DNA of 37,435 bases, from positions 1 to 37,435 of the forward strand of contig NZ_VUKF01000045.1 of the NCBI RefSeq assembly GCF_009193185.1, read 5' to 3'. Source of the DNA: Georgenia thermotolerans (lineage in GTDB: Bacteria > Actinomycetota > Actinomycetes > Actinomycetales > Actinomycetaceae). Position numbers and translations under genes: made by a program. This document shows, one piece after another, positions 14,848 to 23,262 of the stretch. Under the pieces are notes generated by a model. The model saw nothing but the letters and a program-made list of their open reading frames with translations, had not been told where the DNA came from and ran no database searches. Position 1 is the first letter of the stretch, and every line of letters begins with the position of its first letter.

Positions 14848-15285
14848 ATGCCGCGGGCCCGGGACATCCTGCAGCGCTTCCGCCCCGCCGGGACGCCGGG
14901 CGCCGCCGCGCCCGCCGGGGTCCCGGCGGACCGCGTGACCGAGATGGCCGCCGAGCTCGAGCCCGTGCTCGCCCGGCTGGCGGAGGCCCAGGCGGAGGCG
15001 GACCAGGTGCGCGCCGCGGCCCGGCAGGAGGCCGAGCGCCGGCGCCGTGAGGCGGCCGAGCTGGCCGCCGCGCTGGTGGCGACGGCCCGGCGCGAGGCCG
15101 CCGCGGAGCGGGCCGACGCCGCCTTGCACACCACCCGCCGCGCCGAGGCCGAGGCGGCGGCCGTGCGGGCGCAGGCCGAACGCGAGGCGGCCGCCGTGCG
15201 CGCCCGCTCCGCCGACCGCCTGGCCGGCTACGTCGAACGGGTCCTGACCGCCACCCGGGCCGCGATGGAGGAGGCCGGGCCGTGA
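14848..15285 (+). CDS. V/A-type ATPase subunit G/H (peripheral-stalk coiled coil)
   Basis: 145 residues, first gene of the ATPase operon. After a Pro/Ala-rich start (1-28) the rest is one long Ala/Arg/Glu helix with heptad-like spacing and no aromatic core, as in the G (AhaH/NtpF) subunit that pairs with E to form the peripheral stalk. Identity rests on composition, length and position, since this subunit is poorly conserved. ATG 14848 has GGGAGG four bases upstream, the strongest ribosome site of the operon. Its TGA overlaps the GTG of the next gene by 4 bases. Confidence 0.75.
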   Translation: MPRARDILQRFRPAGTPGAAAPAGVPADRVTEMAAELEPVLARLAEAQAEADQVRAAARQEAERRRREAAELAAALVATARREAAAERADAALHTTRRAEAEAAAVRAQAEREAAAVRARSADRLAGYVERVLTATRAAMEEAGP

Positions 15286-16226
15286 GCAGGTCCTGGGTGG
15301 CCGGCGTCGTGCGGGCCAAGGCGCTGGCCCGCCGGCGCCTGGGACCAGCCGGGGCCCGCGCACTGGCCGCCCAGCCGGGCCCGGAGGCCGCGGTCACGGC
15401 GCTCGCCGCCACGCCCTACGGCCACGACGTCCACCCGGGGCAGGACCTCGGCACCGCCCAGCACGCCGTCGGCGCCGCGCTGCTGTGGGACCTGCGCGTC
15501 CTGGCCGGCTGGCTGCCGCGCGGCGGCGCCGACGTCGTCCGGCTCCTCGCAGGCGGGTTCGAGGTGGCCAACGTCGACGAGCACCTCGCCCGGCTCCGCG
15601 GCGCCCCGGCCCGCCCGCCCTACCGGCTCGGCACGCTCGACACCGCCTGGGCGCGCCTCGCCGCGACCACGTCAGCGGCCGCCGTCGCCGAGGTCCTCGC
15701 CACCTCCTCGTGGCGCCTGCGTGGGGCCCGCACCCCCCGCGAGGTCGCCCTCGGCCTGCGCCTGGCGTGGGCCGACGCCGTCATCACCGGGGTGCCGGAG
15801 GCGGCCGGCTGGGCGCGGGCCGGCGCGGCGCTGGTCGTGCTGCGGGAGGTCGTCGCCGAGCACCGGCGGCTCGCGCCCGGCACGGCCCGGCTGGCGACGG
15901 CGATCCTCGGCCCCGGCCTCGAACGCGTCCTGGACCACGGTGCGGCCGACCTGCCGGCGCTGCGCCGCGGCCTGCCCCAGGACGTCCGCTGGCTCCTCGA
16001 CGACGTCGAGAGCGTCGCCGACCTGTGGCGCGCCGAGGTGGCCTGGGTGCACCGGGTGGAGCGGGAGGGCTTCGCGCTGCTGCGCGGGTCGGGCTACGAC
16101 CGGCGCCCGGTGGTCGGGGCGATCGCCGTGCTGGCCGGCGACGCCTGGCGGGTGCGGGCCGCGTTGGAGGCGGCCGGCCGCGGCGGGACGGGCGCGTCGT
16201 TGGAGGCCTTCGATGCCGTGGCGTGA
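15282..16226 (+). CDS. ntpC: V/A-type ATPase subunit C (d/AC39)
   Basis: 314 residues, GTG start overlapping the previous stop (GTGA). Almost entirely helical, without membrane segments, fitting the funnel-shaped C/d subunit that couples the central stalk (D/F) to the K ring. Motifs typical of the family include the repeated Tyr/Leu-rich helices and an ALLWDLRVLAGWLP segment. It is divergent, so the assignment leans on length and location between a stalk gene and subunit I. The stop overlaps the next ATG by 14 bases. Confidence 0.82.
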   Translation: MSRSWVAGVVRAKALARRRLGPAGARALAAQPGPEAAVTALAATPYGHDVHPGQDLGTAQHAVGAALLWDLRVLAGWLPRGGADVVRLLAGGFEVANVDEHLARLRGAPARPPYRLGTLDTAWARLAATTSAAAVAEVLATSSWRLRGARTPREVALGLRLAWADAVITGVPEAAGWARAGAALVVLREVVAEHRRLAPGTARLATAILGPGLERVLDHGAADLPALRRGLPQDVRWLLDDVESVADLWRAEVAWVHRVEREGFALLRGSGYDRRPVVGAIAVLAGDAWRVRAALEAAGRGGTGASLEAFDAVA

Positions 16227-22168: not shown

Positions 22169-22816
22169 GTGGCCACCGTGCACGCGCCCCCGGGACGGGC
22201 CGGCCGGCTGTGGCTCCAGCACCGGCTGGGCACCGCCCGCCGCGGCGCGGACCTGCTGGACCAGAAGCTGCGGATCCTGCGCGTCGAGCGCGAGCGGCTG
22301 GCGCTGCACCGCGAGCGCACCGCCGCGGCGTGGGCGGCGGCGCTGGGCGAGGCCGAGGCGTGGATGCTGCGGGCCGCGCTGCTCGGCGGCGAGCGGGCGG
22401 TGCGCCTGGCCACCGCCACCGCGCCGGCCACGGTCCACATCGGGTGGGAGGAGCCGATGGGCGTGCGCTACCCCGCCGAGGCCGCCTGCACGGTGCCGGA
22501 GCCGCCCGCGGACGGCCCCCCGGCCGGCACCGCCGCCCTGGTCACGGCCCGGGAGCGGTACCGGCGGGCGCTGGAGGCCGCCGTCGAGCACGCCGCGGCC
22601 GAGGCGGCGGTGCGCGTGCTCGAGGCCGAGGAGGCCGCCACCCGCCGGCGGGTCCGGGCGATCGAGGACCGGTGGATCCCGAGCCTGGAGGCGGCGCTGG
22701 CCGAGCTCGAGCTGCGGCTCGAGGAGGACGAGCGCGCCGACGGCCTGCGGCTGCGGTGGGCGGCGGCCCGGGCGGGCGGGCTGACCGGGCCGGCGATCGG
22801 GGGGACCGAGCCGTGA
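22169..22816 (+). CDS. ntpD: V/A-type ATPase subunit D (central rotor shaft)
   Basis: 215 residues from GTG. Two long helices, one at the N-terminus (GRLWLQHRLGTARRGADLLDQK...) and one at the C-terminus (LEAEEAATRRRVRAIEDRWIPSLEAAL), pack as the coiled coil that turns inside the A/B head; a looser middle follows LLGGERAVRLATA. 'L..R...A.RG.DLLDQKLRIL' is the family's opening pattern. The final stop overlaps the GTG of the universal stress gene (GTGA), the last overlap in the cluster. Confidence 0.93.
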   Translation: MATVHAPPGRAGRLWLQHRLGTARRGADLLDQKLRILRVERERLALHRERTAAAWAAALGEAEAWMLRAALLGGERAVRLATATAPATVHIGWEEPMGVRYPAEAACTVPEPPADGPPAGTAALVTARERYRRALEAAVEHAAAEAAVRVLEAEEAATRRRVRAIEDRWIPSLEAALAELELRLEEDERADGLRLRWAAARAGGLTGPAIGGTEP

Positions 22817-23262
22817 GCGCCTTCGCCCGCATCCTCGTGGCGGTCGACGACTCCCCGGCCGCGCTGGCCGCCGCCCAGGTCGCCACCGCGCTGGCCGCCG
22901 CCACCGGGGCCCGGCTGCTGTTCGTCCACGTCACCGCCGACGGCGAGCTGGTCCGCGAGCTGACGGCGATGGGCCGGCACGCCGCGCTCGAGACGCGCCG
23001 CGGGGCCGCGGCCGCCGGGCTGCTCGGGCACGTGGCCGCCGCGGCCCGCCGCGCCGGCGTGGCCGCGGAGACGGTGAGCCAGACCGGCGAGCCCGCGCCG
23101 GTCGTGCTGGCCGAGGCGGACCGCTGGGCCGCGGACCTCCTCGTCACCGGCCGCGCGGACCCGCGCGCCGCCAGCCGGGCCTACGTGGGCACGGTGACCC
23201 GGGAGCTGCTGGAGTTCGCGGAGGTCCCGGTGCTCGTCGTCCCGCAGCCCGTCGAGGAGTGA
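22813..23262 (+). CDS. Universal stress protein (UspA family) coupled to the ATPase operon
   Basis: 149 residues with the Usp fold: opening strand ARILVAVDDSPAALAAAQVA, the second strand LLFVHVTADGE, a helical middle, and the end GTVTRELLEFAEVPVLVVP. The ATP-binding loop of nucleotide-binding Usps (GxxG-9x-G-S/T) is only partly kept: TGRADPRAASRAYVGTVT lacks the first GxxG glycine pair, so nucleotide binding is uncertain. It starts inside the ntpD stop, is the last gene of the operon, and no other regulator is encoded there, suggesting a link between stress and the ATPase. That role is inference. Confidence 0.85.
   Translation: MSAFARILVAVDDSPAALAAAQVATALAAATGARLLFVHVTADGELVRELTAMGRHAALETRRGAAAAGLLGHVAAAARRAGVAAETVSQTGEPAPVVLAEADRWAADLLVTGRADPRAASRAYVGTVTRELLEFAEVPVLVVPQPVEE

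Follow-up and report, generated by a model that had tools for sequence, protein, structure and literature searches.

Described relatives of the enzyme

V/A-type rotary ATPases share a family scheme, in which an A3B3 head works together with a rotor, and it is against the described members of this family that we set the locus presented here. Thermus uses its V/A-ATPase as a synthase, and Thermus-type V/A rings move more ions for each ATP than do the F-type rings of actinomycetes; in mycobacteria, the F-ATPase is latent for hydrolysis. The enzyme of Thermus thermophilus and that of our actinomycete clade are alike in their kinds of subunit, in the fold of subunit C and in a c subunit that is matched over one hairpin, but subunit I of Thermus has two lobes and a coiled coil whereas that of the clade has one lobe, and the clade enzyme coexists with an F-type enzyme and is linked to stress genes. 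The V-type enzymes of Enterococcus and clostridia again have the same kinds of subunit, and their A subunits are ~51-55% identical over 53-56% of the query (Enterococcus and four clostridial records); they differ in their gene order, H-I-K-E-C-F-A-B-D, and in a subunit I of 638-672 residues, 370-375 of which precede the membrane motif, against 137-212 in the clade. In Enterococcus hirae, K has the form of a double hairpin and carries Na+ ligands (PMC2359735). The V-ATPase of Rubrobacter shares the P-loop GGFGTGKT, and genes for a universal stress protein (USP) and a P-type ATPase adjoin it too, but its order is D-H-I-K-E-C-F-A-B, its subunit I has 656 residues and it falls in a separate clade.

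A further likeness is to the OsdR/DevR (DosR) islands of Streptomyces and Mycobacterium, in that USP, CBS, Acg, Hsp20, Rv1733c and NAPRTase genes are also neighbours of our operons, part of which have OsdR-like palindromes. In the part of the OsdR study that was accessible, the V/A-ATPase is not among the regulon genes, and its main text has no word that starts with 'atpase' (PMC5069765). The kind of enzyme is of course known, and database annotation already names the subunits of one operon of the clade. What is apparently new is the single lobe of subunit I and the dormancy-type surroundings, neither of which is described in the titles and abstracts among the matches listed, a literature outside which most subscription journals lie.

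A complete operon

The window, by which we mean the whole stretch of 37,435 nucleotides that was analysed, forms contig 56 of an actinomycete assembly of 4.64 Mb and 116 contigs. At 14848-22816 it holds nine V/A-ATPase subunit genes in the order H-C-I-K-F-E-A-B-D, overlapping or nearly abutting, and a USP gene follows:

14848..15285, + strand: subunit H (G), peripheral stalk coiled coil, 145 aa; placed mainly by position, AhaH only E 0.046
15282..16226, + strand: subunit C (eukaryotic d), rotor adaptor, 314 aa; AlphaFold and Foldseek, Pfam only E 0.046
16213..17802, + strand: subunit I (a), 529 aa, one cytosolic alpha/beta lobe, Arg396; PF01496, 1.9e-23
17799..18248, + strand: subunit K (c), 149 aa, Glu132 in the c hairpin; PF00137, 4.2e-16 over 86-145
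18248..18532, + strand: subunit F, 94 aa; PF01990, 8.4e-4, under cut-off; profile match 96.3
18529..19041, + strand: subunit E, 170 aa; NF002629, 3.5e-4, under cut-off; profile match 96.3 over 11-133
19038..20747, + strand: catalytic subunit A, 569 aa, P-loop GGFGTGKT at 220; NF003220, 3.3e-189
20744..22165, + strand: subunit B, 473 aa; NF003235, 2.7e-177
22169..22816, + strand: subunit D, central shaft, 215 aa; PF01813, 2.2e-30
22813..23262, + strand: single-domain USP, its start overlapping the end of D; PF00582, 2e-22

All ten frames are open. The first-pass annotation had listed nine subunits in the order G/H-C-I-K-F-E-A-B-D, and the frames do open in that order, most of their ends overlapping; its three landmarks, Glu132 of K, Arg396 of I and the P-loop of A (GGFGTGKT from residue 220), were likewise found where it had placed them. 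Of the limits that it gave, 14848-23262, the first is indeed the start of H, but the second is the end of the USP gene, subunit D ending at 22816. It had also set the order apart from H-I-K-E-C-F-A-B-D, correctly so, since the latter is what is seen in the Peptoclostridium, Enterococcus and Pusillibacter records (their first gene being annotated as hypothetical). Across window 14001-24000, G+C is ~78-80% in the operon region and 70-77% around it; a betaine-type transporter gene lies upstream of the operon, and a scan of 14300-23500 for sigma-70 promoters and terminators gave no match.

A and B passed NCBIfam cut-offs and D, I and K those of Pfam; F, E, C and H fell under the Pfam and NCBIfam cut-offs. 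Profiles were compared with subunits of Peptoclostridium, Enterococcus and Pusillibacter, and of Rubrobacter too except for H, and gave probabilities of ~96 for F and E, 98.6 for D, 99.9 for I and 97.1 for K. For C the value was 43, against 0.3 for a mismatched control, and its identity is settled by the AlphaFold model (pLDDT 96.2), whose best Foldseek match in the PDB is the Thermus C subunit (1v9m, E 2e-4), with yeast d also matched. The stalk subunit E is supported by its profile; H scored 74.9 against canonical G/H but 69.9 against E, which separates the two little, and H is best called ambiguous and identified mainly by its position. Of the features of a V/A-type rotary ATPase, a catalytic A with P-loop and bulge domain is present together with B, as are the shaft D/F (by profiles), the adaptor C (by model and Foldseek) and the membrane motor residues, Glu132 of K and Arg396 of I, the latter in the same alignment column as the Enterococcus hirae Arg. 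We regard it as near certain that the locus encodes a complete V/A-type rotary ATPase.

The membrane motor and the stator

Subunit K has an N-terminal hairpin, then an Ala-rich linker with AxA sites and then the c hairpin, which two hydrophobic stretches and the linker precede; the c family matches only residues 86-145. A double-hairpin K of the Enterococcus kind, suggested by four apparent membrane stretches, is not favoured, because the match to the c family is confined to the second hairpin. Sodium enzymes have Ser/Thr after the key Glu and Gln at the -29 position (PMC2359735). In our alignment the key Glu is found in 81/81 rows, with Gly next to it and Val at -29 in all 81, and the Na+ ligands (Gln/Glu in helix 1, Ser/Thr after the key Glu) are absent from K in every one of these rows; the ion is predicted to be H+ for this reason. 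An AxA site stands <=45 residues before the c hairpin in 66/66 rows tested (15/81 rows being without the anchor motif), and the leader of K may possibly be processed as in Thermus, although this is weak evidence because the stretch is Ala-rich.

Subunit I is 414-541 residues long in 49 aligned clade rows, and 137-212 residues precede the conserved membrane motif in the 45/49 rows that have the exact motif, the other four having a close variant. The six comparators are 593-672 residues long, with 335-375 residues before the motif in the 4/6 that match it, and columns 86-466 of the clade profile align to canonical positions 273-642. In the model of the window subunit (mean pLDDT 81.5, confidence very low at residues 45-79), a single alpha/beta lobe precedes the membrane helices; Foldseek matches the model to a subunits of Thermus and eukaryotes, most of the 34 hits (E <=0.001) having query-based TM-scores of 0.41-0.48. 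Two cytosolic lobes joined by a coiled coil, as in the Thermus and eukaryotic type, were not found in subunit I by model, lengths or profile. On sequence grounds, then, the clade subunit I evidently does without the distal lobe and the coiled-coil arm that binds one Thermus peripheral stalk, and the clade is therefore without the known distal-stalk docking site and without that part of what locks the free Vo in Thermus, where the proximal lobe of I also contacts d.

Stress and dormancy genes around the operon

We compared the flanks of 60 fully flanked loci (525 genes, ~540 kb, window included) with 351 control genes drawn from seven carrier genomes, in which 20 regions, each of 20 kb, were placed at arbitrary round positions. 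USP genes number 56 in 42/60 loci against 0/351 among the controls, and CBS genes 42 in 28/60 against 1/351, bearing in mind that the flanks themselves supplied the seeds of the neighbour family models and that many of the 60 loci are Streptomyces and not independent. Against 0/351 in each case, the flanks also hold genes for P-type ATPases (17 in 17/60 loci), Acg (13 in 12/60), Hsp20 (10 in 10/60), NAPRTase (9 in 8/60), phosphoribosyltransferase (4 in 4/60) and a dehydrogenase E2 (13 in 13/60). The genome-wide density of USP matches is 3.6 per Mb in 25 carriers. Representatives of the neighbours, named with Pfam and NCBIfam, include the Acg/Rv3131 and Rv1733c families, and we take the neighbour families to belong to the M. 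tuberculosis DosR regulon. The OsdR study names USPs, nitroreductases and heat shock proteins, along with the OsdR consensus (PMC5069765).

The association is not uniform. With E2 excluded, none of the seven core kinds is found at 11/60 loci, four Arthrobacter among them (one of the 11, L033, does have a USP gene immediately behind D, which gene calling had overlooked), and just one kind is found at 19/60, among them the window, where the USP is the only neighbour of the counted kinds. A same-strand USP gene directly 3' of D occurs in 15/78 loci with D, the window included; the carriers include Georgenia, Demequina, Actinotalea, Pedococcus, Nocardioides and Mycobacterium, and 0 are Streptomyces.

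An exact OsdR-like palindrome, GGGMCN4GKCCC, lies <=250 bp upstream of H in 16/69 loci, against 0.7% of 1380 dinucleotide shuffles and 0.4% of 897 coding windows. The contrast is weaker with <=1 mismatch (37/69 loci against 19.6% of shuffles and 8.9% of coding windows), and the 16 exact cases are not independent, because 13 of them are in Streptomycetaceae (Streptomyces), the rest being in Actinoplanes, Actinoallomurus and Actinotalea. This wider pattern was taken from the published OsdR consensus after a test of the M. tuberculosis-type GGGACN4GTCCC, which, with <=1 mismatch, had matched 11/69 upstream stretches, 82/1380 single-base shuffles and 10/489 coding windows. In the window there is no GGGMCN4GKCCC within 250 bp upstream of H. 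Elsewhere in it, a perfect DevR-type GGGACN4GTCCC stands at 28524-28537, upstream of a PAS-GAF histidine kinase gene (28710-30458), and GGGMCN4GKCCC has 4 matches in the whole window where 1.8 are expected, which could be chance. Taken together, the link of the clade V/A-ATPase to stress and dormancy has good support across the family and little in this genome.

Spread, descent and loss

The A subunit was found at E 1e-100 in 15/394 sampled genomes of the class, our own included, or 14 of the clade family once the actinomycete G644 is set aside, whose A subunit, at 50% identity, is of a second V-ATPase type. Within the genus, 2/9 genomes are carriers, our own included, and 5/59 relatives, again with our own, have the subunit at 1e-60. 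Across the phylum, 94/396 sampled genomes, ours among them, have a V/A subunit A (E 1e-60), which makes the first-pass view that actinobacteria normally rely on the F-type enzyme at least incomplete. In a named collection, 320 stretches match our peptide patterns and 230 encode a relative; the titles of the best 80 of the 230, which are those we used, all name actinobacteria. With four short loci and the window these make 85 loci, of which 63 have the full order HCIKFEABD, the other 22 being truncated or having a missing or split call, and 0/85 are rearranged. The notion that this order is unique to our genome is accordingly rejected: it is the rule across the actinomycete clade. The P-loop GGFGTGKT is found in 84/85 clade loci, and most of the compared V/A enzymes outside the clade have GPFGSGKT; even so, it is not specific to the clade, being also present in several other V-ATPases (L103, L116, L121, L134-L136 and L140). 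Two Dactylosporangium loci (L074 and L086) have no C gene between H and I, ~180 bases separating the called H from the matched part of I, and in L037 (~9261-10629) and L071 (~9210-10473) the subunit B frame is apparently split, through either a frameshift or an error in the sequencing.

In a 61-row tree of subunit A (a quick search, with SH-aLRT as its only support), 35 actinomycete rows are monophyletic, their stem branch measuring 1.1 changes per site with support 100; the nearest row outside is clostridial, Acetoanaerobium (support 97, long branches), and Rubrobacter, the Pseudonocardia plasmid and other actinobacterial V-ATPases fall outside the clade. In an 84-row tree, 78 labelled rows with 11 order labels (L017, whose name had led to a cyanobacterium, being relabelled Mycobacteriales) require 13 changes, where 10 is the least possible, and the clade tree would seem mostly to follow taxonomic orders. 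The first-pass annotation had set its reading against a broad, vertical actinobacterial group with this same gene order, and such a group is largely what the tree describes. Some transfer is likely, because mycobacteria appear in more than one place and the window copy groups with that of a genus mate and with Georgenia, not far from Mycobacterium interjectum.

The patchy spread is partly due to deletion, since the genus mate with the closest flanking epimerase gene (G003, 90%) keeps a remnant of the operon at the same site. This genome shares the surroundings of the window at 86-98% DNA identity outside the remnant, and at the operon site (L170 15600-16560) its upstream region is followed by a shortened but still open H frame, ~30 bases of C and then the window's next gene. 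In G007, the transporter and epimerase genes that border the operon site are direct neighbours, and G002 carries the operon, but in other surroundings. We infer that the V/A-ATPase was present early in the history of the clade and was lost repeatedly, with some transfer, one loss being seen directly.

What the enzyme may do

That the V/A enzyme is accessory to an F-type synthase, as first annotated, is borne out by the genome itself. A search with the nucleotide-binding domain gave six rotary ATPase matches, and three of these loci were read: contig 11 has F-type delta, alpha, gamma, beta and epsilon genes (named by eye, with beta confirmed by TIGR01039) and contig 76 a flagellar-export-type ATPase (named by eye). 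With F-type genes in the same genome, the V/A enzyme is therefore additional, and F-type beta is found in 25/25 carrier genomes checked, our own included. The same annotation called the job of the enzyme unknown, which is now too broad, as the stress/dormancy neighbourhood narrows it.

Our favoured explanation, to which we give a probability of roughly 0.6, is that this is a proton-type accessory V/A-ATPase of an actinomycete-specific lineage, linked to stress and dormancy and mainly hydrolysing ATP to hold a proton gradient. It builds on what can be read from the genes, namely the gene set and order, the Glu and Arg, the missing Na+ ligands, a subunit I that is one-lobed by model and lengths and an association with USP and DosR/OsdR-type genes. 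ATP hydrolysis (or synthesis) in A3B3 would turn D-F-C and the K ring against I and so move protons, on a stator that is reduced in the clade enzyme. Expression would be expected in stressed or oxygen-starved cells, and V/A pumping would keep up the proton gradient of non-growing cells, where the F-type enzyme may do poorly; that the operon is made under stress or when respiration stops, and that its net direction is ATP-driven pumping, is our guess, if one with reasons. Should this be correct, the dormancy link would offer an answer to how aerobic actinomycetes maintain a proton gradient after oxygen runs out. Only tentatively would we go further and propose a minimal stator (one I-anchored stalk, an F-like geometry or a new attachment) in a member of a hypoxic-dormancy regulon that keeps the proton gradient of non-growing cells. 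A whole clade of one-lobed enzymes would test whether V/A-ATPases need a second stalk anchored on I, or the lock between lobe and d in free Vo, at all.

The proposal that the enzyme is instead mainly an ATP synthase, working at low proton-motive force, deserves to be taken seriously even though we consider it unlikely: one K hairpin matches the c family, like the 74-residue K of Thermus and unlike a one-site double hairpin, and the Thermus V/A-ATPase does work as a synthase, but the carriers already own an F-type synthase and the patchy presence speaks against a main synthase. Sodium transport is very improbable, given a K without Na+ ligands in all rows, for all that a betaine-type transporter gene lies upstream and that some bacterial V-ATPases, for example that of Enterococcus hirae, pump Na+ (PMC2359735).

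We disfavour, as quite improbable, a recent import from outside the Actinomycetes, whether from archaea or clostridia. The spread is patchy, the nearest outside row is the clostridial one noted above, the window copy groups with a genus mate, Georgenia and some mycobacteria, and the operon of G002 lies in other surroundings; against this stand the long shared branch of the actinomycete clade, the labels that mostly track orders and the remnant H that the nearest genus mate keeps at the operon site. Nor do we give much credence to a decaying or silent operon without function, in spite of its reduction to a shortened H in a close relative (G003) and of several small subunits that score under family cut-offs, for ten frames are open and the clade keeps the order and key residues over many genera.

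Other V-type loci in actinobacteria

A second V-ATPase type was seen on a Rubrobacter radiotolerans plasmid and in the actinomycete G644, with the order D-(H)-I-K-E-C-F-A-B running into a P-type ATPase gene; H was not detected at the G644 locus. The Pseudonocardia plasmid has F-A-B and a P-type ATPase, with D, I, K, E and C undetected in the 16.9 kb read. In the phylum sample, G186, G240 and G298 are examples with two full-length A-subunit genes, and in G128, G246, G287, G320 and G340 the A matches fall into two blocks within a single open frame of 1068-1151 residues, suggestive of an intein in this catalytic subunit.
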